From positions 1 to 61,109 of the IMG/VR virus record IMGVR_UViG_3300005608_000006: 61,109 nucleotides of DNA, one strand, 5' to 3'. The DNA comes from a virus. This document shows positions 2,700 to 55,535 of this stretch, piece after piece. The position numbers and the translations under genes are program-made. Below the pieces are notes generated by a model, which saw only the letters and a list, made by a program, of their open reading frames with translations, ran no database searches and was not told the DNA's origin. The stretch's first letter is position 1. The number at the start of each line of letters is the position of its first letter.

Positions 2700-2742
2700 G
2701 TTTAATGTCTCCTAGTATGTGCCAGTATCGGTTGTCTAAGAT

Positions 2743-2750: not shown

Positions 2751-2761
2751 TTTTTGAAACG

Positions 2762-6418: not shown

Positions 6419-6420
6419 AA

Positions 6421-6684: not shown

Positions 6685-6814
6685 TTTCAAACTCCTTGAT
6701 AAGGGAATCGTATTTTCTAAACATTTTATCACCTGCGATATAGCATCGCTGACGCTTCCATAAAGCCTCTATGATTAATTTATAATCATCTTTGGTGAAT
6801 GTTTCGGTTGTCAT
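6668..6814 (-). CDS. Small hypothetical protein (48 aa)
   Basis: 48 residues, MTTETFTKDDYKLIIEALWK then RQRCYIAGDKMFRKYDSLIK. Its ATG overlaps the PTOX stop codon (ATGA at 6811-6814), a classic translational coupling signal. Its end overlaps the next gene by 17 nt and contains that gene's AAGGAG. Function unknown; the case for a gene is the arrangement. Confidence 0.7.
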   Translation of the reverse strand: MTTETFTKDDYKLIIEALWKRQRCYIAGDKMFRKYDSLIKEFENASLS

Positions 6815-35411: not shown

Positions 35412-35419
35412 TATTTATG
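35412..35419 (-). promoter_or_regulatory. Late promoter CATAAATA overlapping the giant gene's stop codon
   Basis: CATAAATA on the minus strand contains the TAA stop of the 6,706-residue ORF and lies 18 nt before the ATG of the 407-residue gene. It would let the downstream fibre genes be transcribed independently of the 20-kb gene. Confidence 0.65.
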
Positions 35420-38400
35420 GGGTTTCGGGGTCTACTAACTCTTCACCGTATTGTGAAAGGTCAGGAGCTGTCCAATCATCAGGAACTGATGTTGCAACAC
35501 CGACAGATGGATTTTGATATCCACTTCCTGTTGCACTTATTTCAACTGCAGCAACACCGACTAATGCCTTAATGTTGCCTTCAAATCCACTGATAGAGTC
35601 GATTCTAACAGTAGGTCTAGAAGTATATCCAGAACCACCAGATGTGATCTGAACTTTATCAATTTGACCAGTAGTTAATACTGCGGTTCCTTGTCCTTTG
35701 TTTCCAAATACAGAACCAAGATAATCAAATGTAATTAGAGAGTTAGAAGATTCAATAACAGCAACTTCTCTATCTAATGTCTCACCTTGTATATCAATAA
35801 AGTCACCAGGTTCAACTGGAGGAACAACTTCAGCAGCATCAACGTCTGCTTCAGATCCAACGTAGGAGAACGCAACAAATGTAGATCCAAATCTAGGTAT
35901 CTCAGAGAAGATAATTCTAGAACCAACAATTTCAAAACCAACGCCTGGTTCCTGTAGAACACCATTGAGTGATACAATGATATTGTTCTCAGGTCTAATT
36001 GTTGTGGACTGAACACCATCAGTAAGAGTCAATGAGTAGAATACATCATCACGTTTCAAGTTAAATGATTGACGTAATGAATCAAACTCGAATGATATGT
36101 CATCTAACTGTCTTAACTTACCAATATAGAATCCTGAGAAACCTGCTCCAAGATCAGGTGCTTCTGTAAATGCTATTTCATCAGAGAATGCTGTAAACGC
36201 AAATGTAGCACCAGGAGGTTGTAGCACACCATTAATAAAGATGAGCATGTGACCTGCAGGATCTGGGAAGTACGGAGTTCCGTTTGCAGTTGTAAGTTTA
36301 AAGTTAGTTTGAGTTCCATCAAAACCTCTGAAGGAACGTTTAACTCTTGCTTTAAGATTGACTAAAGTATTAATAGATCCCTTATAATTATCAGGACCGA
36401 TAATACCATCTCTACTACTAAATGTTCCTTTAATTTCAGCAAGATAAAGTCTCTTATTGATACCTACAGTTTCAATATCTTGAATGATACCACTTGCAGC
36501 ACCAGCAACTTGAACAACAGTTGAAACTTGTGCATAACCGATAGGATTGAATGGATCATTAGCAGCACCATAAGCACCAACAAATTGACCGATTGTGAAA
36601 TCAGCACCTACAACTTGCTTATAGTAGATGTAATTATTATCAAGATCAACTTCAGTAATGTAACCATAAACATTAGCGTTCTGGAAATTAGAATCAACTC
36701 TATGAATCTTATCTCCAACTTGGAATGTGTTAACACCACCTTGAATTGAAATACCAATTCTAGTATGACCAGCAGAGTTAATTCTATCACCAACTGAAAC
36801 ATCTAGTCCATCATACTTAACAACTTCTGTGAATATTTCAGAAGCACTTGGGAATAGAGTAGCAGTAGTTTCAAAGGTTCCAGTGAATGTCTCAGTATCA
36901 ATAGTTAATCTACCACCAGTATTTCTAAGAACAGCACCTGACTGAACTAAGAATCCTGTAGGAGATGCTGTGACACCTGATGTATAACCCTTGAATATAA
37001 TATCATTAGTAAATGTTCCTTGAAGTTTATTAATTTGAATTCTATTTTCAATAGCACTGATTTGTGCAGAAGTACTGTTAGCAGCACCAACCATTATATC
37101 TGTAATACCCCAAACTCCACCAGTTACTTGAACATCAAGATACTTATAGTTTGCATCCTGATGGAATCCGTAAACAACACCAGTAATTGAAGTATCACCT
37201 TGTTTTGCTAATGTCTCACCCATTGTGAAAGGACCATTAGTGATGTCACCATCAATTCTCATTCTCTTAAATATCTGAACAATCTTACCTTCATTTAAGG
37301 TTAATTTTTCTACTTCAGCATAATTATCACTTTGAGTTCCATAGAAGTAATCTGTATTATTCAATCCACCAGAAATACCTGTTGGAATAGTTCTAGTTCC
37401 ATATGTCGGAGTAGGAACTGTAATACCATTAAGTGTTGAAAGATTTGTATAGTAAGAATCTTGTAAGAACTGATTACGGATAATATCAAAATTATTTCTA
37501 ATAACTCTCTTAACAGAACTTAAATTATAAGTTGCTGCTGCAGTAGCATCATAATATGCAAAGAAACCTGCATTTGTAGAAGGAGATGTAAGAGTTCCAG
37601 AAAGAGCACTAAACATAAACTCTTCAAGTCTATCTAATGTGAAGTTCTTAATATTAAACTCATTATCGGAGTAGAATAGTTCTCCAGATTGAGCAGTGTA
37701 AGGATCTAATGCACCTTTATTAAGTTTGTAACCCCATGCATATAATCCACTAGAAGCATCACCTGTGTATGATGAAGAACCATCAATAAATATTTGATTC
37801 CTAATCTCTGAGAAACCGAAGGAGAATGTAATTGTAATAAATGCTCTGAACCAACCATCACCATAAGGAATTACACCAGAAGCATCTACAGTAATACCAC
37901 CTTGAGGTTGGAATATAGATCCACCTGCACCTGTAAGAAGATTAATATCAAAGAATGCTTGCTGTTTATTAGATGTTCCTTCATCCAATGAAATCATAAC
38001 TCTTGCATTATCACCATAAGTTCCATTCTGTTTTAAGAATACAGAGAATGTAAATTGCTGATCTTCAGCAGTACCTACGTTACCAGTATCAAATGTTTCT
38101 GATCCAGAGTCAAATTTAACTGTTCCACTATCAAAGGTTTCAAATGCACTGATTAAATAGTTCTTATAAACAAAGTGTTGACCTGCAACTGCTGTAGGAA
38201 CTAGAGCATCAGCAGTTAAAGTTCCATCAGGACCATTTGCTTGATCTACAGTTGTTGTTACTAAGTTGTTAACCCAACCTGCTGCAGCAAAGTTTTCTGG
38301 ATATGGGAATAAGTTAGCAGTAGAAACTTGTCCTTGAACATTTGAAGTAATCTGTCTAGCACTATCAATTACCTCAATGTTAGTTACATTATTATACCAG

Positions 38401-41400
38401 TCAAATACAGTTCCTACACCACCAGAAGCAACTGTTCCAGAACCTGCGTTAGTACCAGCTATTGTATCGCCAGCAAGGAATGCACTGCCATTAAATGAAC
38501 CAACATAAAGTTTAGAGAACTCTACATCCCATTCGAGAATTGTTGCTCTTCCACCACCACTTGAAACAGCAGTTTCACCAACAACATAACTTCCTGTCAC
38601 ACTTGTTAAAGTAATTTCATAAGCACTTTGCTTATCGGTCACATCAGTTGTAACAAAATCATGAATAACATTATTAATCATTTCATCAACAAAAGTATTA
38701 TATTGCCATGAACCAGTTCCAAACTGAGTAGTAACAATATTAGTTAACTCATTCTTATAGTAATTTAAGTTGTAAAGAATATTTTTACTTGCATTTCTAG
38801 CAACTAATTTGCCAGGTGAGAATATGTTTATAGCAATATCAAATAACTCACGCATTCTCCAAATAACTTGATTAATATTAGTTGGAGTAATTGAATCTCT
38901 AAATGCTTCTTGATCGGTATAGGCAGCAGCGTATTGTGAACCTGTTACAGAATTACCTTTTGTATAAAGTAAATTACCTATTGCTTTTTCAGCAAGTAGT
39001 TTCACTCTTTCAAGAGAATATATCCAAGAAGTTAATTCTTCGTTAACTGTTAATACTACGTTGTTTGTATCTAAGAAAGTCTGTGCTGCTAGGATAGTAG
39101 AATTGCTACCACCAGTTTGTAAATCAGATATTACACCAATCATAATATCTTCAAGACTCTGACGACGTGCTGCTAAATTATTTCCATAACTAAATGCTTG
39201 GAATGGAGTTCCATTTAGATCATATGTAAAGAATGCTTGAGTTAAAGAAGTTGCTTCCTCTCTGATGTATTCACGGTTGAAGTAGAATCTATCTCCACCA
39301 GTGTTAAAGTCCAATCCAGTAGGAGCAATTATATCATTGATAGTTGTAACTAAAGTATCAATCGCTGCCTTAACATTTGCACATTGACCTACAGTGCTAA
39401 TTCCATTTGTAGTTGCACTTACAAATGTATGGGCGTATTGATCTGATGCAGAAGATACGCCAACGTTAAATGTAATAGTTGTTGATGTAGTTGCAAGAAT
39501 TGGTAAGTTAGCACCCGATGCAGGATCAGTTGATCTTGGGTATGAATGGTTTGAACCATTACCATCTTGTGTGCAAGTAAATGTTAGAGAGTTATCTGCG
39601 ATATTAATTAATACACCAACATTAAGTGTATGAGATCCAATAGTTGCTACAATAAGACCAGTTGCAGGATCATATGTTGCTCCTGTTGCTGTAAACTGTT
39701 GAACAGCATCATCTGTAATACCCCAATCTCCGACAATTAAATTATCTGTATTATCTGCAGTTAGATCACCTGTAATTGCTTGTTTTGCATAGAAAGCTAA
39801 ACGTTCGTGTGCATAAACAGATTGCCAAACTTGTAATCTAATATGTAATAATTCACCTTTATTGTCAACGTAGAACTTAGCAGCAGTAGTTGTTTCTAAA
39901 TTTCCACCTTGTTCAACATCAGTTGCAAGACCATCTAATATAAGACCTAAGTCAGTCTTACAACGTAGAGTTCCATCAGTACTACCACCACTCTGGTTTC
40001 TTGGCATATCCTGTGCTAATGCAGGATATCTTGTAAGCATATCATATGCTGCTTTATCTACAATCGCACCACGATTTAAACGTATAAGACTTGCAGCATC
40101 TCTATATCTTCCTCTTGCATCAGTATCAACTTGATTGGTATAAATCTCATCATCACCAGAACTATGATAATCAACAGCAAATGGAGTTTGAAGATAAGCA
40201 TCAACAGTTGCACCAAGATATTCATATGCAGGTGAAACTTTAGTAACACTAGCAAGATGATCTACAGGAGTTGATGCAGATGCCTGAGTTATTGTATCTG
40301 TAAGGATATCAATTAAATTGCCAATAGTTGTAAATACATCTGCACAATCTGCAGTCGAGTAATCAAGTTCAGTGACTGCATTTGTTAGAGCAGAAACAAA
40401 TGAATGTGTATACTGATCATTTACACCAGATGCACCTACGTTAACTGTGATAGATGTGTTTGCAACAACAGCAGTAACAGCTAAGACTGCATTTTCGGCA
40501 GGATCACCAACACGAGGATATGAATGTTGACTTTCATTACCATCCTTGGTGCATGTAAATGTCACACCACCAGTTGCGATCTTAACTCTACTTGAAGTTG
40601 TTAGAGAATGAGTTCCGATAGTTAGAACTAAATCACCAGTTGCAGCATTATATGTCGCACCTGTTGGAGTAAATGATGTTAGAGATGCAGTTGTAGAATC
40701 GGTGATTCTCGCATCAGTTGTTTGAGTTAATCCATGATCACCTTGAATTGTCCAAAGAGTATTTGTGATAATATACTGAAGCATATCATCAACTTTCTCA
40801 TAAGCAAATAGTGTTTCTTTGACTGCAGGTTCAATCTGTGCAATTTGAACTGGATTAGTTGTTCTATCGACATAGTAAGATGCAGCATCCCAAATATGAT
40901 TATTAGAACCATTACGAAGATCTTGAACGATTGCATTCAGTGTATCGCGAATATCATCTTCACAATTAAGAGGTGTGTCAGATATAACACTGTTAGCAAC
41001 AGCAGATACAAATGTATGGACATAATTTCCTCCAGTAACAACTGCGTTTGCTGCAGCAGAAACAAATGTATGAGCATATTGATCTGCCTGTGCAGAAACT
41101 CCAACGTTGATAGTTACAGTTCCAGTTTGTTTAATTAAAGCACCAGCAGTTGCAGATACAAATGAGTGAGTAGAAGTATCACTAGATGTTCCAATATCGA
41201 TTGTAAATGTATCACTATCAACTACAGTTACCTCAACCCATTCTCCTCTAATAGGATCAGTCTGTCTTGGATATGTGTGATTTGTAGCATTGCTGTCATA
41301 AGCACATGTAAATGTTAGGGAATTATCTGCAATTTGAATTCTATTACCAGTAGATAATCCATGAGCACTAGAAGTATTAACTGTTAGAACACCTGATGTA

Positions 41401-44400
41401 GGAACATATGATGCACTACTAATATCTTGTGTAGTTGTACCGACTGCAGTCACATCTAGAGCAGTGTTGTATGCAGGATCAGGAGATCCATCGCCTGCAG
41501 TTGCACGAGGATATGTTTTCTGTGCACTATTACCATCTTGTGTGCAAGTAAATGTGAATGAATCTGCAGTCAGTCTAATTTGTGTTCCAACATTGATTGT
41601 ATGATTAGCAATCGTCATTACGAACGCACCAGTTGCAGGATCGTAAGTTGCATTAGTTGGTTGGAAATTAACTAAAGGTGAAGGTCCGACGTTAACAGTT
41701 ATATTAGTTGTTGTAGAAGATATAATTGGGAGAGCAACTTGTTTAGATGCAGGATCAGTTGCACGAGGATATGTTTTATTAGAAGTATTGCCATCCATTT
41801 CACAAGTAAATGTTAATGCATTATCTAAAATCTTAATTCTATCTTTTTGGATAGTAATTGCATTTGTAATCGCAGAAGAGAATGTATGAGCATATTGTTG
41901 ACCAGCTTGAGATGCACCAACATTTACTTCAAATGTATTTTGAGTAACATTAGAAACTGTCAACCACTTACCAGCTGCTGGATCTGTGGAACGAGGATAT
42001 GCATGAATCGAACCATTACCATCTTGTGTGCAAGTGAATGAAATACCACCAACTTTTATATTAACTTTTTGTCCATTCTTAACGATGTGATCATAAGAAG
42101 TAATTACCATCGCACCAGTTGCAGCATTATATGTTGCAGTTACAGGAGTAATTTGACCACCATTAGTAAATGTATTATTAGCAACTGTTAATGATAATTC
42201 ACCACTTGCAGCATTATATGTCGCACCAGTTGGTGTAAAACGAGTTCCAAGAATAACAAGTTCTGGATATCTCTGCTTCATTTGATATACAACTTCTTTC
42301 TTGATGAAGTCTGAGTTATTTGCAATTAGATTTGCAGCATCATAATATCTGTGAGATTTATTAGCAAAACCTGCAGGAGTTCCAGTTAATCTTGAGGTTT
42401 CAAGTAAAGCATCATTACTAAACTCTTCACCAAATGTAAACGATTCTCCACCAGACCAATCATCAGTATAAGTTGCTTGATCTACACCTTCAAAGTGGAA
42501 TAGTAATTTTGTATCATTATCACCTTGGAATATACCGTTTCTAGGTGTAAATGGAGCAGTTGGATAACGATCAACTACAGATATTCTTACCTCGTCAATA
42601 TGACCTGCAATTCCATTTGCATTAGCATAATCAGCACCAACTCTAAATGGTTTTGCTGCATAGTTACTACTATCAGTTCCAGTACCTGCAGCAACTCCAC
42701 CAATGAATATTGTTGCTGTAGTTCCAGTCCTCTTGATTGCAATATGATACCATACATCATTATTCAATACTGTAGAACCTGATGTTACTAAGTCTGAATT
42801 ATTAACATTATAACGAACTTGACCAGCTTGTAAGTATAAACGAGCAGCTACTTCATTAGCAGTAGATGCTCTCATATCAAATATAGTTTTAGTTCCTTCA
42901 AGGGAAGATTCTGAAGGTTTGATCCAACATTCAAGTGTATATGCACCAGTTCCAAATGCAAATTCAGCAGAACTAGGAACTGTTATATAATCTGATGTTG
43001 ATGATGCAGCACCAACGTTAACTGTAATAGTTGTTCCAGTTACAGCTGTAATTGATAAGTTTGCACCAGATGCAGGATCAGTTGCACGAGGATATGCATG
43101 AGTCGTTGTGTTATTATCTGCTGTGCATGTAAATACGATTCCATTATCAGCAATCGTTATCGTATTACTTGTGGTCAATCCATGAGTTCCTATGGTAATT
43201 ACCATGACTCCAGTATTAGGATTATATGTGGTTCCACTCTGAGCAGTGAAACTTCCTGATGCACCTCCACCAGCTGTAATAGCATCAGTAACACCACTTG
43301 AGAATGTGTGAGTTGTTTTTGCCTTACCTACTAAAAGAGATGATATACCAAACTTTTTAGTAGATCTATCAATCTGTGCAGAGTTAGTGAAAGTTGCTGT
43401 ATGATAATCTTGACCAGTAGATTGAGATCTACCTATCTTACCAACATAAACAGTTTTTCTTGCTTGGTTATATCCAACAACTTCTGCTTTAGTATCAGTG
43501 GTTCTAATTACTTGACCTGCTTGGAAGAAACCTGCACCAACTGGATTTGTAAATGAAATTTTTCTTACAAATGAATCCTCTAATAAAAACTCACCAGAAT
43601 TGTTTCCATATTCTAGTTTGTAATTACGAACATATTCACCATCTGTAAACGTTCCAGATTCATTATCATAAGGAATTATATTTGTGCTTACAATTTCATT
43701 AGCAGGGAATTTAGAATCAAATGCTGTAGAATTATCTGTAAAATCAACAATATTAATTTGTGATTCTGATATATTATCTAAAACAACGTTAGGATATGTT
43801 TGTGATGTAATTCTGTTGAATAATAGTCCAGAGAATGAAGATCCATCAGATATATTAACCTGTCCAATAAATTCGTTAGTTGTAGGATCTTGATATGCTG
43901 CAGTTGCAGTAACACGAGCAACTACACGAGACTGAGCACCTATAATTACTTCATTTAATTGAATATCATATAGACCTGGTGTAGACTGATAAGTACCAGC
44001 AGTCTTACTTAATGTAAGATTATTTGTAACGTTAATTTCTGTTCCATACACAGGAAGATCTTCAAGATGAGAGATCGCAGTAGTTCCTAACTGCCCTCTA
44101 GTAACAGTTATAGTATGGAAATTATTACTCTCGGTAACATTAGTGCAAGTAACAATTTCAGAACCGAATTGATAGTTTTTAGTAGCAACAAATGTACCTG
44201 TAGGAGGTGCTGCTTCAGCATTTTGACTACCAACAGCAATAATATCAATCGTTTGTGTAGAAGGACCAATACTATAACGAAGTTGTCCTAAAGGTGTTTC
44301 TTGTCCCTTATCAAGGTTGATTGCTTCAACTTTAGCATTATCATTTTGGAAGTTAGTAACATTCTCACCAAATACAAACAATCCTAAGTTAGTAATAGGT

Positions 44401-47400
44401 GTAATAGTTCCTAAATTAGCATTAAATCCAGTAGCACTTACGTTGACTAATTCACCTGCAACGAATGTTCCTTGAGTTACAAATCCTTCGATATTATTAC
44501 CAACAACTAAAGTAACAGTCATTCTTGCTGCAGATTGAGATCCTACAACTTCATTACCAACATTAGGGAAGATACCACTAATATTTGTGAATGTGAATGT
44601 TGATTGAGGAATATTTTGAATCTGAATATTTACATATTTGACACTAGCAGGTGGTTGTGGTGGTTCTGCAAATACAATAGAATCACCTTGAAGTTCAAAA
44701 GATACATCTGGAGTTTGAACAACACCGTTGATAATAATCAATAATTGGTTAGCATTAGCAACAATATTATCACCAAGAATTGTTAGTGGGAATTGAGTTC
44801 TAATACCATCAAATAAAGTAGAAATATCATCCAATCTTTGAACAACAGAAGTTAGAATATTTTCAGAAGATGTTAATCGTTTTTGTCTGAATAGTACTTC
44901 TGTATTATTAAACTCAGAGTAAATTGGTTCAACAAGAGAGAAGTTTTGAATATTAGGAACTATTGCTTCTTGTGCTAATTCAACAGATTTAGTTAATTGG
45001 AAATCTGTTTCTTTATTAGGAACAAATCCATAATCAGACAGATTTAATTCACCAAATACTTTGAATGATGCAGGATGAACGTTCTTGATAAGAATCTCTT
45101 TCCACTCATCAATAGATACAGCAGATTTAATTGCATAAGAGAAGTCTTGATAATAGTAACTATCTTGAATTTTCTGAATGATCTCAGATGGTTTTCCAAT
45201 ATCATCAATAAATTGTCCAGTTGTTTGAGTAATAGAACCAATCTCAAGAACACCTTTAGCGATGTTTAGATCACTAATAATACCAGAAGATTTAGAAATA
45301 ACACCAGTTAATTTTTGACCTTCAATAAAGTCTCCTGTGTAGTCAACAACTTTAAGAACTCTAGGTCCAACTTGCCATCCACTATTTGTAGAAACATAAC
45401 CTTGTGCAGTGGCAGTTTCAAAAGTATCACCTTGATATACAAGTTCTCCTTCTAAGAATGTAGATGTAACAACGTTTGCAGTAGCACCACCACCAAATGA
45501 TTCAGTTAATACCTGTTGACGACCAGTACCAGCATTCACGAAGGTAAGAGCGTCGCCTAATGCAGCGTTTGCTGCAGTGATTGCAAGTTTTAACTGATCA
45601 TTCTCAAGAGAATTACCAGCACCTGCAATAGCATAATATGTGTTAGTAGAGTTCAAACGACCAGTAGCACCAGATGCTAATGGGAACTCAGTTCCTTCTC
45701 CAGTATCAACAACATTCAAATTAACAGCAGCACCATTTGGAATACCATGTGGGAAAGCAAACTGTAGTAATCCTAAGTCAACGTTAATAACATAGTTGAA
45801 TGAAGATCTTAAATTAATTGTTGGAGTTGAAGAATATCCAGAACCAGGATCTTTAACAGCAATTTGATCTAAACGACCATTTTTAATTGTTGCTTCTGCA
45901 GTCGCACCAGAACCTCCACCACCAGTTATAACAACAGTTGGAGGTTGAGAGTATCCAGAACCAGGATCAGTTACAGTAATACTTTCTAGTATACTTGTAG
46001 AAGTTAACTGTGCGTTGATTGGGAATGTAATCTCAGGACGTAAAGTATAGTCATGTGGATAATCATAACCAAAGTTATTATTCTTAAGTTTCTTAATCTT
46101 ACCAACTTTATCACCCTTAGTGAAGATTGATGCTCCAGATCCAAATGGAGGTATAACAACAACCAATTCAGCACCAGATCCAGTTAGTCCAGATCCAAGA
46201 ATACCAGATATTGATTCAATATCAATACTTGCAGTAGTATATCCTTTACCTGGTGATGTAACTAAAACTGATTGAATTTGACCAGGAATCGATACACCTT
46301 CAGAATCAGTTCCATCTGCAACTGTAATTTGAACAAATCCACCTTCACCATCACCTGCAATAGGAACACTATTATAAGTTCCTACAGCGTATTCTGTACC
46401 TGGTGCATTGATTTGAATTCTTTCAATTTGTCTTGTAGATTGAATACCAGTTACAACAGGTAATCTAGTATAGAAACCGCCAGGATTGACAATACGAACT
46501 CCACCAATAGATCCAACTGCTCTTACAGAACTTGTTGTATATGATGCTTGTGCTACTGTAGCAGAACCTTCTGGTTCATTTTCTAATGGGAATCTTATAA
46601 CATCTGCACCACGAGTAATTGTTGCACCACTAATTCCTTGAATAGTAAATGTTCCAAGATAAGGAGAATCAGTTACATCTAAGTAACTACCAGTAGTAAT
46701 TGGTGAAGTATCACCAGTTCTTGAAGGATCAAAGTAATATGAAATATTAGTAACTACATTTCTATCTACTTTTAGTTTTACTGTAGGTGTAGGAACACCT
46801 TGACCAGTTATACCAGGAGTTCCAACTCTTTCGATAGAGTTGAATGAATATTCCAGTTTGTTGAGATTATCTTTAGAGAATGATAAGTTTCCACCTGCAA
46901 GTGAAGAATGACTGACATCAAAAAGATATTGATGACCATAATACATTTTTAAAACAGGAGACTTAACAAATACACTTACAGAACCTGCACTTGTAGCTGG
47001 TGAAGTTAATGCTGCAGATGGTAATTTATATGTAAATTCTAACGGACTTACTATTGTGTTTACAGCAAATGCACCATCATATTCATCGTATGTAACACCA
47101 CCAGATTCTTGAGATGGATTACCATCAACAAATATCATTTCTCCTACAGAAAGGTAATGACGAGTTCCTGTAATTACATAAACTAAATCGCTATTTGCAA
47201 CTGCAGTTGCTTGTAATGTCTTAGATAGATTTGCTACAAGAGTAATCTTTAAAACACCAGTTAGGTTAGTAATTTGTGTAGTTGTATATGCTGTGTTAAA
47301 ACTTATATCTCCAGAGTTGATATTAATAACAGATCCAACAATATATGAAGATGATCCAGATACTTCGTCAATTCTAACAGAGTAATCATCATCAGAATAT

Positions 47401-50400
47401 GGTTTGAACTTAGCAAGTTCGTCTAAGTTATTAGAACCACCCTCAGGATGATTATAACTGTTTAGATCTATATCAAATGTACCAGGTGTTGTATTATTAA
47501 TTTGTGGGAAACTAAATCCTTTAATTTCATTAACATCGGCTGGTATAGGTCCGACAATACCATATGTGCTTTGCTCACTAAACTGTGCTGTAGAAAGAAG
47601 ACCAAGGTTTAAATCATTTGACCAAGCATTATTGTTTACAGCAAGATATACTTTATTATTAACAGTATCAGTAGAAATAATGTAACCACTATTAACGAAA
47701 CTAGAACCATTATTCAATACAAGTTTACTACCAACAGTAAATGTAAATGATTGGTTAATAGTTAATTCTTGAACATTATCAATCTTAATAGTTGGTGAAA
47801 CTTTGAAATAATATTTGTCTTTTACTGTTGCAGTAGCAATAAGTTTTTGAGAACCTGGTGAAGGAATAGTTGCGGTTCTTGATCCCCAAACATCTTGTTT
47901 ATATGTTAATGGTTCAGTATCTTGTCCTAATGCTATTGTTGCATCATCAAAGTCTAAGTTTTGGAAACCTGCTTCAGCAAATACCATACCTGCAGTGGTC
48001 ATTGTAAGTGCAGATCCTGTTACAGGAGTTACTGCAGTTCTTGCAAATCCAACAGATGTATTTGTTTGTGCTGCTGTAGTTCCAAGTCTTGTTGCTGCAG
48101 CATCCTTATCAACTTTAAGACCAAAACCATTATGAACAACATAATCATATTTGTTTTGATTAGTTGTAAACCATGCAGTATCAGTCCAACTGTATGCAAG
48201 GGCAAATGCACCAGTTGTAGGATATGCAGTTACATCAGAAGGAACAGTTGGGGTAACTGCTCTATTTCTCAATCTTACGTTATCAACAAAGAATGTTCCT
48301 TGCTCATTTGAACGGAAGTTGCCAGCAACACCACTTCTACCAGGAATCTGACCAATATAAAGATCTTTACTACCTAACGATGTGCTAGTAACACTTCCTG
48401 TAAATACTTGTAAACCATTGACATAACCAGTATATTGATTACCTTCTTTCTTTAATCCTATAAACTGCCATGTATTATCAGCAAACATATTAGTCAATGT
48501 AGACTGTAATGCAGAACCTGCAGAGTTAAGGGCAGTTGAACTATTTGTAACAACTAATTCCAATCTTCCACTACTTACATCATAATACAACCAGAGACCA
48601 CCAGTTGCTACAGAAGCATCACCAATAGCAAGTAAGGTGTGTTGGGTTTGAGATAAAGATGTTGCTGTAGAATCTTTATAAACCATCATCTCAAATGTCC
48701 AATCACCTGTTAACTTAGTACCAAGTTGAGCAGAAGTAATTTGAAGATTTGCTTGAGTCCAAGAAGTTTGACCAGTTTGATACCCATATATTTTAGCAAC
48801 ATTATCAGCGTATGTGATAGAATTACTTGTTGAAGTAGATGTTAAGGTATAATGTCCAGTAGTATCAACATTTGAACCTGCAGTGAATGGGAATATAAAT
48901 TCATTTCTATTCCAAGATGTTTGACCAAAGGCATAAACGTCACCAGAGTTATCTGAAGTAAGAGATTGAACTGTAATACCTTCAATATTGTTTACATTAA
49001 ATTCGTTAGTTGTCTGATTCTTAATTTTACCATCATAACCAAGTTTAACTGTATCAACAGTTTTTAGTAAGTTAGATGTAGCAGATTTAGTAAATGCGAG
49101 GTTTAAATCACCAAAAATATCAATAGAAGATCTTGGTGCAAGATTAATAGATCCACCAGTTACCAAATAACGATAATTCCAAAGTAATGTTCCACTTGTA
49201 TTGACTTTAGCAACCCAGAAACTATCTTGTGTAGTATCATCAGATTTTAATTGACATGTAGCAGAAATATATGCTTCATTAAAATCATCAACAACCATTG
49301 AGCTGTTAATCATTGAATATAAAGCGTTTGTGTAAATATTAACCCAATCAATAGTAATTGATGCAGTTCCTAAAGTTGCTTTACCAAATGCAACGTTTGT
49401 ATCTGCTTCAGAAACTGTAGATGAAATTTCTAATGTAAAGTATATGTCATCATTAATTTTTGCAAGAGATGTAAGTTTTTCTGAGTTTGCTGATGAAGCA
49501 ATTTTTCTCTTAGTAACAAAACTTCCAGTAGTATCAACAACACCAATGAATGCATCATAAGGATTAGTAGAGTTTGTATTTGTATATCCCCCAATAACAA
49601 CTCTAGTGGAAGAATACTTCATTACTGAAGTAATTTTATCAGATCTAGTAGAACCAGAAATACCTGCATATGCTTTCTGATATGTAATTGCTGCACTTAG
49701 ACCATTTGCTGCTTGAGTATACTTAAGTAAGTAAACATCAGGATTATAGGCATCTAAAATTGATGCATTTGGTTTAATTTCACCAACAACCCAAATATCG
49801 TTTCCATCAACTGCTAATTTTATATTTTCAGTGTAATTTGTTCCAGTATTACTCTCTACAGTTTTTTCCCATTCTTTAAGACCTGTTGCTGATAATTTTG
49901 CAATAAATCCAATGTCATTACCAGAAGCATCTTTAGTTTTACCGCAAATAAAGGTTTCTTTATCGTCATTAACAAAAACATCGTTAATTACGACATTATT
50001 TTGATTTTCTACTAGAGAAACAAAATAATCTGCCTTTTTAAAGATTTGTGGATGTGAAATGATAACTCTAGGATTTACAGTGTACCCAGAACCAGAATTG
50101 ACGATATTTACAGAACTAATTGAACCAACACTTGTTACAACTGCTTCAAGTGAACCAGAAGAACCATCTCCATCAATAGTAATTACTGGAGGAATGTCAG
50201 TATTGTATCCAGAACCATTTTGAGTAATTACAATCTCTTCAATACCTTTAATTTGTCTAACTACGAACGTTTTGTTCGTGCTACTCATAAGAGGTGAATA
50301 TGCAACAGTAACCTGATCACCAACTTGTAAATTATGAGGACTATCAGTTTTTAAAACACCAATATTGTTACCACTCACATTTTCAAAACCATATGTTGAA

Positions 50401-53400
50401 ACTGTTTCACCAACAATCTGCGAAACACGGGCAGAAACACCAGTTCCATCAGTATCAGTGTTGTCAAAGACTAAACGGTCATTTACCTGATAAGATATAC
50501 CTGGATTCTCAATAGTAAATCCAGTTACAGACGCATCTTCAAATTTAGTGATAGTTTCAACTTCAATATCAACTTTTGAGTCAAATTTAACTTTAGGGAA
50601 GTAATCAAAAAGTTGTAAAGGTGATTCTTCAAAGATTTGATCTGGATCGTCAATCTCTACTTGATCAATCACACCACTTCTATCTTCGTCTTCTATCTCA
50701 AATAGGAGTATATCACCATCTTCGGTAGTTAGAGCGTTTGTAGAGGCATTTGGTGCCCTCTCAACGTCAATATCAACGTTCTCATAAGGATCACGATATC
50801 TAACAACACCAGTAGGAATATTTTGTTGTGTTGCACCATCATTTAAGTTCCAAGTGTCAACAACAGAGTTGTAACTAGGACCTAAAACATATGGGAATAC
50901 TGCATTACCTTGTTCTGTATTATCAATAGTAACAAAGTAACAATATCTACCTGTTGGGAAGTCAGGTGTCTTACAGAAGCGACCATTGTATTGATCAAGG
51001 TCTCCTAAGTTAAAGACGTACTCATAATCTTCAACAAATTTACCTGCTGCCTCATCAGTTAACAGAGGACCTGCAGTTCTAACAGGATATGGGTTAGTAA
51101 TCGCATCAAATACTAAATTAGTCTTTAATTTATATGAAGTTCCCAATCTTTTGATCTGTGAACCTTGATCAGTAGGATCTGTGTAACCATAAGGACCGTA
51201 AATTGGGTTTCCATCAAATGCCCAACCAATAATAGGTGAGTGTGTTAAAGAATCATCTTGTTCTAGTGTTTGACCAACAGTATTACCAGTTTGACTGACA
51301 AATAAGTTATCTCCAAGAATAAATCTTAGTTTTTGTGGGTTTGAAAGGTGTGCATACTCTCCACCATACTGACTATTAAATCCTGTCTCAACAATACCTT
51401 TTGCAGAGTCAATAGTTGCAGTTTCTTGTAAGTTATATGTCCATTCAAATACGTTTGCTGTAAATAATGCATCTTGACCAACAGATGTAAGATTAATTAC
51501 TGTAGTTCCTTGAACATATCCGATACCTCTGTTAACAATCTCAATTCCTGTAACTCTACCTGCGTTTTCTCCATCTGTATCAATAGTTGCTCTAGCAACA
51601 GCACCAAAACCATCTCCTTGAATACCAATAGTAGGAGCAGTAGTATATCCAGTACCTGCAGATATGATCGCAATAGAAATGATACGTCCATTCTGAACGA
51701 TTGCTTGAGCCACCGCACCAGAACCAGAACTTAGAGTAACAGAAGGTGTAGTTATATACGATGCACCACCAGTATCAACAGATACGGACTGAATAGGACC
51801 ACGAACCTGTGCAGTCGCGGTAGCACCCGTTCCTCCACCACCAACAATAGTAATAGCGGGTTGAGAAGTATATCCTGTTCCTCCAGAGTTGATTAGTATT
51901 CTTGATACAACACCTTTTGTTATAATAGCAGTCGCAGCAGCACCAGAACCGCCTCCACCAACTATAGAAACAAGCGGAGATGATGTAAATCCAGATCCAC
52001 CAGCAGTTACGGTAACTTCACTAATAGAACCATTAACAACAACAGATGCAGTCGCACCAGTACCTCCACCACCAGTAATACTAATTACGGGAGGAGATGC
52101 AGCATCATATTCTTTACCTGCATTGGTAATAGCAACTGATGTTATAGCACCAAATGTTTTCTTAGTTGTAGACTTATAAGACCAAACTGAGACACCATTA
52201 ATCCAAGTTCCTACAGGACCTGCGTTAATTGTGTTCTTTGTTGATATAGTTGTAGCTGTGCGTGGGAACCTATTTAACTTACGTTGGTTGCCTGGTAATA
52301 GTGCGGAACCAGGAAATGGTCCTATGTTGTAGTTAGGAATACCAGTTGACGCGACATAAACGTAATTATCATTGAAGAATGAGTTTTGAACGTTAGTAGT
52401 ATACGGAGCAATGATATTATTAATTGCGGTTGTATCCGATTTACCTTTATTAAGGTCAACAGATACAAGAATATTACCTTGCGGAACAACTGACGCAGGT
52501 TGTGGTAATGAATATTGGAATACAGTTGTACTATCTCTAGATGTTACCGCAAAAGTTCCGTTATAGATTATTGGGTTCGCACCGTAGATAGTAACCTGAT
52601 CACCAACTAAAAGACCGTGTGGGTTAGAGCAAGTTACTGTAGCGGATTGATTGTTAACACCACCAAAGGTAATTGATGTAACTTCGATTAATTTTTTGAC
52701 ATTATATAACCAAGTATTCAATTCTGGACTTGTTGATGATCCACCTAACTTAGAGATTGTTAATTTATCGCCAGGTAAGTAGTAAGAACCTGTATCAGTA
52801 AGAGTTGTTTGTTGTGCATCAACAATACCAACAACGTTCATCACAACTTCCTGTGCAGTCCCCTTATTAATGAATACAGTAAAGTTTGAAGATACTTCCG
52901 TAGCAGAATCCCAGTCTTCTACGATACCGTTTACGGAACGAGTACACTCAATAAACTGGTTTAGTGATTTTTCCTTATATCTTACAACTTCCGTCCCACC
53001 AATTAGAAACTCTCCGTTTCTTTCTGGCCAACCGATTGTAGAGTCAACAGTAATAATACTATCTTCAGTTCCGAGTGGTTCTCCGAGTTTTGTTTTATAT
53101 GGAACAGTAAAACTACCTTGAATAGTTTCTTCTGAAAGAACTAATTCATAAATATCCGTTTCTGATGTTCTAATTGCAATATAGTTCTCTACAAGTGCAC
53201 TCGCTGCTAAAATATTTGGATCCGCAATATCTGCTTCTTGTTGTAATAGACCATCTTGAATATCAACGGGATTACCTCTTACTAATGTCGCACGGAGAAT
53301 CGTATCAATAGACCATGTTGCAGCAGATGGTTTGATAATTTGGTCTTTAGGGTAAGAAATACTAATTTGCTCACCATAAAGTAACTTAAACAAGTAAGCA

Positions 53401-55535
53401 ATACTAAAACTGGTTCCTTTACTTGAGTAAAAGTCCTTAATAGTTTTAATAGCGGTGCGAACGTTGATTTTCTTGTAATCAAGTTCTGGAACGTTAGGTA
53501 AGAACTGTTCAGTATACTTGTCTAGCAGTCTCTTTACAAATAAAGCATCAAGACACTTAATCTCAGTATTTACAGTCGCTGCAGCAGCAGAGGTGTTATT
53601 AGAGAATACTGCATTACCATCTTCACTATATTCAGTAATACCACTTGCAGCTCTAGCACATCCTGTAAACTGTGCTTTCTGATAGTTCGCACCTGTTAAG
53701 TTTACAGTGAATCCAGTAACTTCATTCAAACCAGTTTCCGCAGATGCTTTCGCTGTTGGAGGATCTTGAATAACAATCGTTGGAGGATTCGCGGAAGAAT
53801 AGTTAGATCCAAAGGTTGTTACGTTAATATCTGTAATTCTTCCGTTAAAGATTGATGCAGTTGCGGTAGCACCAGTTCCACCTGCGTAATTTCCTTGTGC
53901 ATCAGTTCTATTATCTACAATGAATACGGAAGGAACGTCTTCATATCCACTACCACCGTCTAATAAGTCAATATTTGTTACTCTACCGCTACCATCAACA
54001 GTAACGTCAAGCACTTGAGCACCAACAGGATCAATAATAGCAACTCTAGGAACAGAAGTGTATCCTTGACCTGCATTTACAATATTAAGTGCAGTAACTT
54101 GACCATTTGAGATAGTTGTAGTTATCGCTGCTTTAATAGGGTTAGTTCCAGTTGGTTCATCAACATAGACTGATGGTGCAGTCGCATATCCTTGTCCACC
54201 ATCAGTAACTGAGATAGTTCCACTTAAAGAACCATTTAATATCTGTACTGTGCCGATTGTAGCACCACCTGGTTGTCTAAAACTTATTCTAGGAGTAAAA
54301 GTATACCCACTACCAGAACTAAGCACCTCTAGACCGCTTACAGACCCGTTTGTGACCGTTGCACGAAGGGTTGCTTGTTTTGCTCCTGACTTGGTAGGTG
54401 CTTGAATTACAACAGTAGGAGGGTTGGTATCACTATAACCTAATCCACCCTCTAAAAGTTGAACATTCTTGATTCCATTTACAAGTGAAGTTGCAGATCC
54501 ACCACTACCAATACCTGATGGAGAGTTGATAGAAATTTGAGGAGGATATTCATATCTGTAACCTGATCCGTTCTCACTAACAGTAATACCACTTAATTGA
54601 CCTGAGTCATTTATTCTTGCATATCCTTTTGCACCTGCACCGAAAGAAGGAACTGGTGCTTCAATAGAGTACAGAGATAATATCCTACCATTGATAGGAG
54701 CAACTGTAAATATGAAGGTATTGCCATCAATAAAGAAATCTACCTTTGGAACTAAAACTTTATTATCATAAATTGCTATAACATACTCATCAACGATTGG
54801 TTCATATGGTGCACTTGTTCTAGTTAATGCAAATTCTGTTTTTCCGTCTCCAAAAGCACCAGAAATGTTGTCAAGTAAAACTATAGAGTTCTCAACGAAA
54901 CCATTAAGGTAAGTAACGTAAGTATTAACACTGTCATCAGAAGGAGTTCTTGTTCTTGGTGCAGTTGTAAATTGTATATTAGTTCCGTCAACAGTATAAT
55001 CTACATTTGGTATCAGAACCTCTCCATATACAGACACTTGAAGGTGTTGTGCTGAAGGAGGACCTATTGGATTGTCTTGAGATGTTAATTGAAATATTGT
55101 GGTCGTTCCGTCGAAGGAGTCTATCAAATTTTTCAATCCAATAAACTTAAGTTTTACTTCTTCATAAGAAACACCAGGACTAAGTGAGATATTAGGTGAG
55201 TCAGTTGTAGATTCGTAGTATATTACTTCATCGCCAATTAATATTGATCCATTATTGTCTAAAAAGGAATCTACACTCTCAACAACGATTCTATCTGATG
55301 ATGCAGTGATTGATTCTACTAAAGTTGTCTTACCATCTAATATTCCAATGTCTAATTTATCAATATCAAGGTATTGGAGGAAATTATTAAGGATATTTTG
55401 TCCCAATCCAGTTTTTTCCTGAGATTTGTAGTAATACTCAAGAAATTTTGTGAAAAGAGGGTATTCCCCTTTTATAAAATCGGGTGATTGGGATCCAATC
55501 GCCTGCGATACCTTGTTAATCTTGCTAGATGTCAT
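35415..55535 (-). CDS. Giant baseplate-region protein in the gp7 position (6,706 aa)
   Basis: One uninterrupted 20,121-bp frame encoding roughly 0.7 MDa. It follows gp6, where T4 has gp7 (1,032 aa). Approximate layout: 1-300, start (FIKGEYPLFTKFLEYYYKSQ); 305-612, GSGY-type Gly-rich units; 697-725, the conserved KDFYSSKGTSF...YPKDQII block of phage gp7-like proteins; 1132-1332, more GGGGSGA units; 1434-1555, a YHYH domain (AFDGNPIYGPYGY); 1833-2205, a beta-propeller-like region; 2211-2424, a LamG-like jellyroll; 4100-5380, seven Cys/YPR modules with helical modules between; 4182-4351, a second LamG-like domain; 6430-6530, two NGVLQxPG units; the C-terminus ends in Gly-rich units. Probably baseplate wedge plus a long adhesive periphery. 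Gp7 identity rests on position and the 697-725 block. Confidence 0.9.
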   Translation of the reverse strand: MTSSKINKVSQAIGSQSPDFIKGEYPLFTKFLEYYYKSQEKTGLGQNILNNFLQYLDIDKLDIGILDGKTTLVESITASSDRIVVESVDSFLDNNGSILIGDEVIYYESTTDSPNISLSPGVSYEEVKLKFIGLKNLIDSFDGTTTIFQLTSQDNPIGPPSAQHLQVSVYGEVLIPNVDYTVDGTNIQFTTAPRTRTPSDDSVNTYVTYLNGFVENSIVLLDNISGAFGDGKTEFALTRTSAPYEPIVDEYVIAIYDNKVLVPKVDFFIDGNTFIFTVAPINGRILSLYSIEAPVPSFGAGAKGYARINDSGQLSGITVSENGSGYRYEYPPQISINSPSGIGSGGSATSLVNGIKNVQLLEGGLGYSDTNPPTVVIQAPTKSGAKQATLRATVTNGSVSGLEVLSSGSGYTFTPRISFRQPGGATIGTVQILNGSLSGTISVTDGGQGYATAPSVYVDEPTGTNPIKAAITTTISNGQVTALNIVNAGQGYTSVPRVAIIDPVGAQVLDVTVDGSGRVTNIDLLDGGSGYEDVPSVFIVDNRTDAQGNYAGGTGATATASIFNGRITDINVTTFGSNYSSANPPTIVIQDPPTAKASAETGLNEVTGFTVNLTGANYQKAQFTGCARAASGITEYSEDGNAVFSNNTSAAAATVNTEIKCLDALFVKRLLDKYTEQFLPNVPELDYKKINVRTAIKTIKDFYSSKGTSFSIAYLFKLLYGEQISISYPKDQIIKPSAATWSIDTILRATLVRGNPVDIQDGLLQQEADIADPNILAASALVENYIAIRTSETDIYELVLSEETIQGSFTVPYKTKLGEPLGTEDSIITVDSTIGWPERNGEFLIGGTEVVRYKEKSLNQFIECTRSVNGIVEDWDSATEVSSNFTVFINKGTAQEVVMNVVGIVDAQQTTLTDTGSYYLPGDKLTISKLGGSSTSPELNTWLYNVKKLIEVTSITFGGVNNQSATVTCSNPHGLLVGDQVTIYGANPIIYNGTFAVTSRDSTTVFQYSLPQPASVVPQGNILVSVDLNKGKSDTTAINNIIAPYTTNVQNSFFNDNYVYVASTGIPNYNIGPFPGSALLPGNQRKLNRFPRTATTISTKNTINAGPVGTWINGVSVWSYKSTTKKTFGAITSVAITNAGKEYDAASPPVISITGGGGTGATASVVVNGSISEVTVTAGGSGFTSSPLVSIVGGGGSGAAATAIITKGVVSRILINSGGTGYTSQPAITIVGGGGTGATATAQVRGPIQSVSVDTGGASYITTPSVTLSSGSGAVAQAIVQNGRIISIAIISAGTGYTTAPTIGIQGDGFGAVARATIDTDGENAGRVTGIEIVNRGIGYVQGTTVINLTSVGQDALFTANVFEWTYNLQETATIDSAKGIVETGFNSQYGGEYAHLSNPQKLRFILGDNLFVSQTGNTVGQTLEQDDSLTHSPIIGWAFDGNPIYGPYGYTDPTDQGSQIKRLGTSYKLKTNLVFDAITNPYPVRTAGPLLTDEAAGKFVEDYEYVFNLGDLDQYNGRFCKTPDFPTGRYCYFVTIDNTEQGNAVFPYVLGPSYNSVVDTWNLNDGATQQNIPTGVVRYRDPYENVDIDVERAPNASTNALTTEDGDILLFEIEDEDRSGVIDQVEIDDPDQIFEESPLQLFDYFPKVKFDSKVDIEVETITKFEDASVTGFTIENPGISYQVNDRLVFDNTDTDGTGVSARVSQIVGETVSTYGFENVSGNNIGVLKTDSPHNLQVGDQVTVAYSPLMSSTNKTFVVRQIKGIEEIVITQNGSGYNTDIPPVITIDGDGSSGSLEAVVTSVGSISSVNIVNSGSGYTVNPRVIISHPQIFKKADYFVSLVENQNNVVINDVFVNDDKETFICGKTKDASGNDIGFIAKLSATGLKEWEKTVESNTGTNYTENIKLAVDGNDIWVVGEIKPNASILDAYNPDVYLLKYTQAANGLSAAITYQKAYAGISGSTRSDKITSVMKYSSTRVVIGGYTNTNSTNPYDAFIGVVDTTGSFVTKRKIASSANSEKLTSLAKINDDIYFTLEISSTVSEADTNVAFGKATLGTASITIDWVNIYTNALYSMINSSMVVDDFNEAYISATCQLKSDDTTQDSFWVAKVNTSGTLLWNYRYLVTGGSINLAPRSSIDIFGDLNLAFTKSATSNLLKTVDTVKLGYDGKIKNQTTNEFNVNNIEGITVQSLTSDNSGDVYAFGQTSWNRNEFIFPFTAGSNVDTTGHYTLTSTSTSNSITYADNVAKIYGYQTGQTSWTQANLQITSAQLGTKLTGDWTFEMMVYKDSTATSLSQTQHTLLAIGDASVATGGLWLYYDVSSGRLELVVTNSSTALNSAGSALQSTLTNMFADNTWQFIGLKKEGNQYTGYVNGLQVFTGSVTSTSLGSKDLYIGQIPGRSGVAGNFRSNEQGTFFVDNVRLRNRAVTPTVPSDVTAYPTTGAFALAYSWTDTAWFTTNQNKYDYVVHNGFGLKVDKDAAATRLGTTAAQTNTSVGFARTAVTPVTGSALTMTTAGMVFAEAGFQNLDFDDATIALGQDTEPLTYKQDVWGSRTATIPSPGSQKLIATATVKDKYYFKVSPTIKIDNVQELTINQSFTFTVGSKLVLNNGSSFVNSGYIISTDTVNNKVYLAVNNNAWSNDLNLGLLSTAQFSEQSTYGIVGPIPADVNEIKGFSFPQINNTTPGTFDIDLNSYNHPEGGSNNLDELAKFKPYSDDDYSVRIDEVSGSSSYIVGSVININSGDISFNTAYTTTQITNLTGVLKITLVANLSKTLQATAVANSDLVYVITGTRHYLSVGEMIFVDGNPSQESGGVTYDEYDGAFAVNTIVSPLEFTYKLPSAALTSPATSAGSVSVFVKSPVLKMYYGHQYLFDVSHSSLAGGNLSFSKDNLNKLEYSFNSIERVGTPGITGQGVPTPTVKLKVDRNVVTNISYYFDPSRTGDTSPITTGSYLDVTDSPYLGTFTIQGISGATITRGADVIRFPLENEPEGSATVAQASYTTSSVRAVGSIGGVRIVNPGGFYTRLPVVTGIQSTRQIERIQINAPGTEYAVGTYNSVPIAGDGEGGFVQITVADGTDSEGVSIPGQIQSVLVTSPGKGYTTASIDIESISGILGSGLTGSGAELVVVIPPFGSGASIFTKGDKVGKIKKLKNNNFGYDYPHDYTLRPEITFPINAQLTSTSILESITVTDPGSGYSQPPTVVITGGGGSGATAEATIKNGRLDQIAVKDPGSGYSSTPTINLRSSFNYVINVDLGLLQFAFPHGIPNGAAVNLNVVDTGEGTEFPLASGATGRLNSTNTYYAIAGAGNSLENDQLKLAITAANAALGDALTFVNAGTGRQQVLTESFGGGATANVVTSTFLEGELVYQGDTFETATAQGYVSTNSGWQVGPRVLKVVDYTGDFIEGQKLTGVISKSSGIISDLNIAKGVLEIGSITQTTGQFIDDIGKPSEIIQKIQDSYYYQDFSYAIKSAVSIDEWKEILIKNVHPASFKVFGELNLSDYGFVPNKETDFQLTKSVELAQEAIVPNIQNFSLVEPIYSEFNNTEVLFRQKRLTSSENILTSVVQRLDDISTLFDGIRTQFPLTILGDNIVANANQLLIIINGVVQTPDVSFELQGDSIVFAEPPQPPASVKYVNIQIQNIPQSTFTFTNISGIFPNVGNEVVGSQSAARMTVTLVVGNNIEGFVTQGTFVAGELVNVSATGFNANLGTITPITNLGLFVFGENVTNFQNDNAKVEAINLDKGQETPLGQLRYSIGPSTQTIDIIAVGSQNAEAAPPTGTFVATKNYQFGSEIVTCTNVTESNNFHTITVTRGQLGTTAISHLEDLPVYGTEINVTNNLTLSKTAGTYQSTPGLYDIQLNEVIIGAQSRVVARVTATAAYQDPTTNEFIGQVNISDGSSFSGLLFNRITSQTYPNVVLDNISESQINIVDFTDNSTAFDSKFPANEIVSTNIIPYDNESGTFTDGEYVRNYKLEYGNNSGEFLLEDSFVRKISFTNPVGAGFFQAGQVIRTTDTKAEVVGYNQARKTVYVGKIGRSQSTGQDYHTATFTNSAQIDRSTKKFGISSLLVGKAKTTHTFSSGVTDAITAGGGASGSFTAQSGTTYNPNTGVMVITIGTHGLTTSNTITIADNGIVFTCTADNNTTTHAYPRATDPASGANLSITAVTGTTITVNVGAASSTSDYITVPSSAEFAFGTGAYTLECWIKPSESSLEGTKTIFDMRASTANEVAARLYLQAGQVRYNVNNSDLVTSGSTVLNNDVWYHIAIKRTGTTATIFIGGVAAGTGTDSSNYAAKPFRVGADYANANGIAGHIDEVRISVVDRYPTAPFTPRNGIFQGDNDTKLLFHFEGVDQATYTDDWSGGESFTFGEEFSNDALLETSRLTGTPAGFANKSHRYYDAANLIANNSDFIKKEVVYQMKQRYPELVILGTRFTPTGATYNAASGELSLTVANNTFTNGGQITPVTATYNAATGAMVITSYDHIVKNGQKVNIKVGGISFTCTQDGNGSIHAYPRSTDPAAGKWLTVSNVTQNTFEVNVGASQAGQQYAHTFSSAITNAITIQKDRIKILDNALTFTCEMDGNTSNKTYPRATDPASKQVALPIISSTTTNITVNVGPSPLVNFQPTNATYDPATGAFVMTIANHTINVGTQIRLTADSFTFTCTQDGNSAQKTYPRATAGDGSPDPAYNTALDVTAVGTTTQDISSASYVPTSGVLTVNTSSAHGLSTGNRIQIADNSLTFTCAYDSNATNHTYPRQTDPIRGEWVEVTVVDSDTFTIDIGTSSDTSTHSFVSATAGALIKQTGTVTINVGVSAQADQYAHTFVSAAANAVVTGGNYVHTFVSAVANSVISDTPLNCEDDIRDTLNAIVQDLRNGSNNHIWDAASYYVDRTTNPVQIAQIEPAVKETLFAYEKVDDMLQYIITNTLWTIQGDHGLTQTTDARITDSTTASLTSFTPTGATYNAATGDLVLTIGTHSLTTSSRVKIATGGVTFTCTKDGNESQHSYPRVGDPAENAVLAVTAVVANTSITVNVGASGVNDQYTHSFVSALTNAVTELDYSTADCADVFTTIGNLIDILTDTITQASASTPVDHLASVTKVSPAYEYLGATVDAYLQTPFAVDYHSSGDDEIYTNQVDTDARGRYRDAASLIRLNRGAIVDKAAYDMLTRYPALAQDMPRNQSGGSTDGTLRCKTDLGLILDGLATDVEQGGNLETTTAAKFYVDNKGELLHIRLQVWQSVYAHERLAFYAKQAITGDLTADNTDNLIVGDWGITDDAVQQFTATGATYDPATGLIVATIGSHTLNVGVLINIADNSLTFTCTQDGNGSNHSYPRSTDPASGANLPILATTSTTITFNVGVSSASDQYAHTFVSATTNGISTVGQCANVKAAIDTLVTTINDIIAPTGLDFNTGGDRFYFNREYIREEATSLTQAFFTYDLNGTPFQAFSYGNNLAARRQSLEDIMIGVISDLQTGGSNSTILAAQTFLDTNNVVLTVNEELTSWIYSLERVKLLAEKAIGNLLYTKGNSVTGSQYAAAYTDQEAFRDSITPTNINQVIWRMRELFDIAINIFSPGKLVARNASKNILYNLNYYKNELTNIVTTQFGTGSWQYNTFVDEMINNVIHDFVTTDVTDKQSAYEITLTSVTGSYVVGETAVSSGGGRATILEWDVEFSKLYVGSFNGSAFLAGDTIAGTNAGSGTVASGGVGTVFDWYNNVTNIEVIDSARQITSNVQGQVSTANLFPYPENFAAAGWVNNLVTTTVDQANGPDGTLTADALVPTAVAGQHFVYKNYLISAFETFDSGTVKFDSGSETFDTGNVGTAEDQQFTFSVFLKQNGTYGDNARVMISLDEGTSNKQQAFFDINLLTGAGGSIFQPQGGITVDASGVIPYGDGWFRAFITITFSFGFSEIRNQIFIDGSSSYTGDASSGLYAWGYKLNKGALDPYTAQSGELFYSDNEFNIKNFTLDRLEEFMFSALSGTLTSPSTNAGFFAYYDATAAATYNLSSVKRVIRNNFDIIRNQFLQDSYYTNLSTLNGITVPTPTYGTRTIPTGISGGLNNTDYFYGTQSDNYAEVEKLTLNEGKIVQIFKRMRIDGDITNGPFTMGETLAKQGDTSITGVVYGFHQDANYKYLDVQVTGGVWGITDIMVGAANSTSAQISAIENRIQINKLQGTFTNDIIFKGYTSGVTASPTGFLVQSGAVLRNTGGRLTIDTETFTGTFETTATLFPSASEIFTEVVKYDGLDVSVGDRINSAGHTRIGISIQGGVNTFQVGDKIHRVDSNFQNANVYGYITEVDLDNNYIYYKQVVGADFTIGQFVGAYGAANDPFNPIGYAQVSTVVQVAGAASGIIQDIETVGINKRLYLAEIKGTFSSRDGIIGPDNYKGSINTLVNLKARVKRSFRGFDGTQTNFKLTTANGTPYFPDPAGHMLIFINGVLQPPGATFAFTAFSDEIAFTEAPDLGAGFSGFYIGKLRQLDDISFEFDSLRQSFNLKRDDVFYSLTLTDGVQSTTIRPENNIIVSLNGVLQEPGVGFEIVGSRIIFSEIPRFGSTFVAFSYVGSEADVDAAEVVPPVEPGDFIDIQGETLDREVAVIESSNSLITFDYLGSVFGNKGQGTAVLTTGQIDKVQITSGGSGYTSRPTVRIDSISGFEGNIKALVGVAAVEISATGSGYQNPSVGVATSVPDDWTAPDLSQYGEELVDPETP
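39390..43270 (-). repeat. Seven dispersed FTC-YPR modules inside the giant gene
   Basis: The giant protein repeats a unit of about 75-100 residues: PTGATYNAATG, an IADN-like turn, FTCTQDGN, then YPR(A/S)TDPAxG and a NVGxS...YAHTFVSA end. YPR motifs fall near 43085, 41988, 41765, 41510, 41268, 40510 and 39535. Four are nearly tandem (41270-41990). The others are separated by LamG or helical modules (DAANLI / AASYYVD / CADV types). This indicates growth by repeated duplication and interleaving. Confidence 0.85.
51500..52140 (-). repeat. Tandem Gly-rich 'GGGGTGATA' repeats in the giant gene
   Basis: Consecutive units of about 35-40 residues read as (T/S)xPxVxIxGGGGxGATAxA, then xVxxGxIxxVxVxxGGxGY. 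At least five occur here, and related clusters are at 53700-54620, 45800-45990, 31400-31750 (1,391-residue protein) and 29080-29290 (gp8). They look like short beta-hairpin units making rod-like stalks. Confidence 0.8.

Follow-up and report, generated by a model that had tools for sequence, protein, structure and literature searches.

The window, the 61,109-base IMG/VR record analysed here as a whole, encodes on its minus strand a protein of 6,706 residues that is probably the baseplate wedge gp7 of a T4-like cyanophage, enlarged by module accretion and bearing built-in adhesin arms. The open reading frame starts with ATG, runs from position 55535 to 35415 through 6,706 codons with no internal stops, and has a predicted product of 715 kDa and pI 4.6. 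It is a genuine gene, neither a chance frame nor an assembly error, and its product is a member of the known Kyanoviridae family phrog_701, sited between gp6 and gp9. Three short segments, N, M and C, would represent the ancestral gp7 core, and in each of the six wedges this core would be paired with two chains of gp6. YHYH, beta-propeller and lectin-like domains would be presented on a loop between M and C; beyond C the chain would continue for 3,200 residues as an arm built of lectin and repeat modules and closed by an invariant cap. We infer six copies of a single uncleaved chain, with outward-facing arms and loops that most likely bind the cyanobacterial surface, one chain doing part of the job of separate fibre genes in other T4-like phages.

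Gene neighbourhood

The gene order gp25 - gp6 - giant ORF - gp9 - GC399 - gp8 - VrlC is shared with P-RSM4, P-SSM4 and S-SM1, and the initial annotation was right to place the frame in the gp7 slot. The giant gene lies between the gp6 and the gp8/gp9 genes (Table 1), as in T4, where gp7 comes after gp6 and ahead of gp8 and gp9. A tape measure identity was rejected, as it fits neither this position nor the beta-rich modules. The GC399 slot holds a 1,391-aa YHYH protein (29988-34163), whose YHYH and Gly-rich stretches are akin to residues 1432-1471, 1498-1564 and 3175-3240 of the giant, so that baseplate genes have modules in common. Residues 215-357 of gp8 form a Gly-rich stretch with 36% identity to residues 3036-3189 of the giant. 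Further along the window, an ORF of 2,431 aa (13365-20660) contains a tandem array at 15147-16074 with a 156-base unit in about 5.8 copies. Its position makes it the probable counterpart of the YadA protein of S-TIM4 (2,235 aa; ORF108), for which recombination among internal repeats has been proposed (PMC6224464).

Table 1. Features of the giant gp7-slot gene and its neighbours, in window coordinates
Feature	Residues (aa)	Position	Strand	Evidence
gp25 baseplate wedge		57567..57986	-	phrog_261, E=3e-61
gp6 baseplate wedge		55540..57567	-	phrog_219, E=2e-221
Giant gp7-slot ORF (phrog_701 family)	6,706 in all	35415..55535	-	
Putative gp7 core segment N	4-62	55350..55526	-	profile match 94 bits; PF23786 positions 5-53
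Gly-rich beta repeats	300-620	53676..54638	-	self comparison
Putative gp7 core segment M	651-749	53289..53585	-	T4 gp7 (5hx2) residues 732-759, E=2e-5; PF23786 158-221
M-C insert	2,680 in all	45249..53288	-	against 105 aa in T4 gp7 and ~230 aa in gp7s of 482-503 aa
YHYH domain	1365-1539	50919..51443	-	PF14240, E=4.4e-31
Predicted beta-propeller	~1849-2216	48888..49991	-	AlphaFold2 pLDDT 83; CylK propeller Z 38, 351 residues, rmsd 3.2
LamG/ConA-like domain 1	~2235-2430	48246..48833	-	only Pfam Laminin_G_2, E=0.06
Putative gp7 core segment C	3430-3501	45033..45248	-	best PDB match T4 gp7 865-889, E=0.063; PF23786 235-280
Hypervariable repeat zone (FTC-YPR modules, helical segments)	4080-5380	39396..43298	-	
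LamG/ConA-like domain 2	4179-4318	42582..43001	-	PF13385 (LamG_3), E=3.8e-19
One YPR unit	5280-5383	39387..39698	-	occupancy 0.18; clean gap in relatives L108, L111, L114
Arm module	5400-6000	37536..39338	-	also in S-PM2 gene S-PM2d088; profile matches down to E=3e-20
C-terminal cap	6380-6706	35418..36398	-	length and identity across relatives
gp9 baseplate wedge tail-fibre connector		34170..35393	-	phrog_677, E=1e-195
gp8 baseplate wedge		28417..29949	-	phrog_438, E=4e-231

A probable split gp7 core

Profiles of the three segments were made from segment alignments of ten phages, with T4 left out. Against 177,635 PDB sequences, the segment M profile places T4 gp7 first and as its sole significant match (E=2e-5), and the segment C profile also ranks T4 gp7 first, at a level not significant alone (E=0.063). 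Segment N, a probable N-terminal helix-turn-helix, finds no gp7 match in the PDB and gives T4 gp7 a weak 4-bit score; it is conserved in all relatives tested, from 482 to 7,312 residues. Within the core, segment M and, weakly, C thus carry the homology to T4 gp7, and the PF23786 baseplate-wedge model follows the giant as three collinear pieces in a single frame, its 24.3 bits falling below the curated cut-off of 27. No control ORF exceeds 3.3 bits with the N, M and C profiles, T4 gp7 itself excepted.

The order N-M-C is kept in 21 of 21 gp7-slot proteins, including forms of 482, 503, 896, 1,006, 1,942, 3,048 and 3,274 residues. The segments lie close together in phage gp7s of 482-503 residues (at 1-54, 56-138 and 370-438 in the 482-aa protein of ACP17) and are separated by insertions in the giant; in T4 gp7, a weak N match, M and C fall at 649-689, 732-759 and 865-889. 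The minimal gp7 of Ps15 has T4 gp7 as its top PDB match, with E values of only 0.04-0.07. The constant order and the series of spacings suggest that a small gp7 was pulled apart by insertions and acquired a long tail. On sequence grounds, the three segments appear to constitute the T4 gp7-type core of the giant. The gp7-like block of the initial annotation is thereby recovered, in three pieces of PF23786, and a core split in this way has seemingly not been described before in the open-access papers covered.

Modules of the insert and the arm

The initial annotation had listed a set of modules, of which the YHYH domain, LamG_3, the beta-propeller (by structure prediction), the Gly-rich blocks and the FTC-YPR repeats hold up; the first LamG domain is weak by Pfam (E=0.06). 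The AlphaFold2 model clearly predicts the propeller, and Foldseek likens it, together with LamG domain 1, to sialidases that combine a propeller with a lectin, at low TM. Self comparison finds five Gly-rich blocks, the further ones at residues 1125-1360, 1750-1830, 3030-3290 and 6600-6690. Past segment C the arm spans about 3,200 residues. Its FTC-YPR modules number seven by motif, and the unit at 5280-5383 is missing from most relatives. Fold names for the FTC-YPR region were discarded: AlphaFold2 pLDDT is 68.5, Foldseek returns two weak matches below E=0.001 with low probability, and the VIA-align scores (Z 8-9 over about 78 residues to an E1 enzyme half-domain, Z 8.1 to the phi92 endosialidase) are too middling. 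The giant also matches the tail fibre family phrog_5342 (E=3e-105), which together with PF13385 and PF14240 provides the lectin-like and fibre modules of a receptor-binding or tail-fibre protein.

The YHYH domain is present in shorter gp7s as well (S-PM2, Syn1, MA01), the propeller and LamG domains occur in the giants only among the gp7-slot proteins tested, and arm modules are found in S-PM2d088. This distribution suggests that the giant gp7 grew stepwise by module uptake, and it is from the distribution that the order of steps is read. In the series from 482 to 7,312 residues a baseplate core would be seen to gain adhesin modules, and the module borders are precise enough to be used for constructs and cryo-EM model building.

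Conserved and variable zones

Relatives mostly share 70-90% identity in the cap and in the blocks around segments M and C. Mean identity amounts to 78-89% over residues 6401-6600, and the cap is exactly 327 residues long in 56 of 56 distinct relatives. Conservation is lower and indels occur at residues 3700-6400, with 4000-5400 differing in both repeat number and sequence; the distal part is hypervariable, as would be expected of a receptor-binding protein. The arm stretch 4430-5130 comprises 701 residues in the giant and from 412 to 1,645 across 21 relatives. Its 1,645-aa version (L160 1247-6181, an interval set by end anchors only) represents a large arm expansion.

Function of the added modules

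The added modules most likely act as adhesin arms, a view to which three observations on other phages lead. The internal loop and C-terminal tail of the T4-gp7-like gp17 of phage XM1 hold its tail spikes (PMC10457771), and these are the same kinds of place that are enlarged in the giant. Long tail fibres are not visible in S-SZBM1, which also lacks long-fibre gene products (PMC9146016). During coevolution with the host, S-PM2d088 and the gp7-slot gene S-PM2d081 both gained non-synonymous mutations (PMC9910659). S-PM2d088 is a gene of its own, lying between VrlC and gp13 in the host-recognition region of S-PM2; its product, a hypothetical protein, shares helical and arm modules with the giant. 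The built-in receptor-binding arms suggested in the initial annotation are plausible in this light. Besides the PF23786 score below cut-off and the weak T4 matches of segments C and N, two points count against the preferred reading: the account of S-TIM4 adaptation names the YadA protein, and not the gp7-slot gene, as the main target (PMC6224464), and GenBank labels S-PM2d081 hypothetical, which may mean that it went undetected in virions of S-PM2.

The arms could serve as scaffold instead of adhesin. The protein would then be the same gp7 with added modules that are structural, forming the outer baseplate in the role that gp10, gp11 and gp12 have in T4, and YadA-type or fibre genes would bind the host. 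Conservation is good over most of the M-C insert, unlike in a receptor-binding tip, and other candidates for host binding lie downstream, such as the 2,431-aa ORF; the YadA protein ORF108, its probable counterpart in S-TIM4, acquires mutations as the phage adapts to its host (PMC6224464). We consider this reading doubtful, though of some weight, given the strong variability of residues 4000-5400 in repeat number and sequence among relatives, the lectin-like modules and the kinship with S-PM2d088.

Returning to the adhesin arms, we tentatively raise a broader proposal, in which we have somewhat less than even confidence: in marine T4-like phages the wedge gp7 itself might be the host-recognition device, with a propeller-lectin loop in its core, a variable adhesin arm and a fixed cap. 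If true, receptor contact would be relayed along one covalent chain to the contraction-triggering gp6 ring, without a separate long-fibre relay.

Virion presence and processing

Absence of the protein from particles is contradicted in relatives, as homologues were found in purified virions of S-SZBM1 and S-SM1. S-SZBM1_208 (6,619 aa, 724 kDa) yielded 71 peptides and 13.5% coverage in CsCl-purified virions (PMC9146016). GC969 was detected in virions of S-SM1 (PMC3037559); by its record it is SSM1_102, the gp7-slot protein of 6,180 aa. ORF122 of S-CREM2, in the same slot, yielded 91 peptides (PMC10665884). By analogy with these orthologues, the giant is presumably a virion structural protein. 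The T4 baseplate has six gp7 copies (PMC3004832), and six copies of the giant would weigh 4.3 MDa.

The published mass spectrometry of orthologues is equally compatible with one chain or with pieces. A polyprotein from which post-translational cleavage releases a gp7 part and at least one fibre part would accord with the modules being separate genes in other phages and with the cost of a 715-kDa chain. Such processing is nevertheless improbable: neither a protease domain nor a prohead-protease motif cluster was found in the giant, and the papers covered contain no report of cleavage. LPxE sites, of the T4 prohead-protease type, are absent from the giant, and for the looser pattern [LI][PAGNS]xE it has 6 sites, where shuffled sequence has about 12.

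The gp7 slot and VrlC

Cyano- and pelagimyophages have been stated to lack gp7 and to have VrlC in its place (PMC7029224), in which case the giant would be an unrelated structural protein. This is very unlikely in view of the location of the giant between gp6 and gp9/gp8, the position of T4 gp7 as best PDB match of two core profiles, and the small collinear gp7s that occupy the same slot in phages also carrying VrlC. The core results speak against the absence of gp7 and its replacement as put forward in 2020, and locate gp7 in phages where it was called absent.

Integrity of the reading frame and its relatives

Chance and assembly error are dismissed because a second IMG/VR record, IMGVR_UViG_3300026189_000009 (45,688 bases), carries the same 6,706-aa open frame; it is 99.99% identical to the window across the 20,076 bases compared, which include residues 3056 to the end of the giant, and may or may not be an independent sample. 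In the isolate phage P-RSM4, a single blastp HSP spans residues 6-6704 at 66.7% identity, in collinear order. The uninterrupted frame reported in the initial annotation therefore stands. Across related loci, codon position 3 is the most variable and position 2 the least in every 300-codon block of residues 1-4200, and the same pattern holds beyond residue 4200 with P-RSM4 as the sole comparison. An artefact fusing several genes has next to no likelihood, being refuted by the many isolate genomes in which, as in the second contig, the gene is intact, against three ORFs in the metagenome-derived metaG-MbCM1. The split there (L019 29-19795) likely reflects sequence errors.

The gp14-gp18 DNA of the window is closest to the phages S-TIM4 and P-RSM4 (about 79.5%), and the source is therefore a Kyanoviridae cyanophage. 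Four overlapping pieces of the giant cover positions 2-1990, 1592-3597, 3198-4070 (best stretch) and 5135-6134 of the 6136 in the phrog_701 profile. Full-length relatives number 13 with the window ORF included (6,167-7,312 aa), and in 283 phage records the match extends to at least 80% of the first 3,000 residues. The initial annotation had surmised an undescribed form of baseplate, a claim that these matches and the homologues known from virions overturn; several GenBank records already name relatives gp7 or baseplate wedge initiator. It had also ranked the protein among the largest of phages, which is correct yet not new: the P-SSM4 homologue (7,312 aa, 800 kDa) was already listed in a 2021 survey, as the largest bacterial-virus protein in its set (PMC8553790). 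The protein as such is ordinary among these abundant marine viruses, to which the window adds one member with its own repeat set.

Comparison with known systems

The Kyanoviridae giants (P-RSM4 ADO98490.1, P-SSM4 gp7 YP_214641.1, S-SM1 SSM1_102 and S-SZBM1_208) share with the window protein the position, length class, collinear sequence, core and cap. They differ from it in the YPR modules, of which the window giant has its own set, including the unit that most relatives lack. T4 gp7 (PDB 5hx2, 5iv5; 1,032 aa) is likewise adjacent to gp6 and keeps the order of M and C; some 650 residues precede its core and 105 separate M from C, whereas the giant has nothing of note before N, 2,680 residues between M and C and 3,200 after C. 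The short gp7s of ACP17 (Acidovorax, 482 aa), Ps15 (Stenotrophomonas, 503 aa), phiM7 (Sinorhizobium, 1,006 aa) and Melnitz-2 (896 aa) combine N, M and C with Gly-rich repeats and lie between gp6 and gp8/VrlC, but YHYH, propeller, LamG and YPR modules were not detected in them. S-PM2d081 (3,048 aa) and Syn1_094 (3,274 aa) have the core and, inserted between M and C as in the giant, a YHYH module; neither showed a propeller or LamG domain, and the arm-type modules of S-PM2 reside in the separate S-PM2d088. Gp17 of Vibrio phage XM1 (242 aa), likened here from the publication and not from sequence, is a published counterpart of T4 gp7 with the core bundle at its start (PMC10457771); it is tiny, and the spikes of XM1 are a separate protein.
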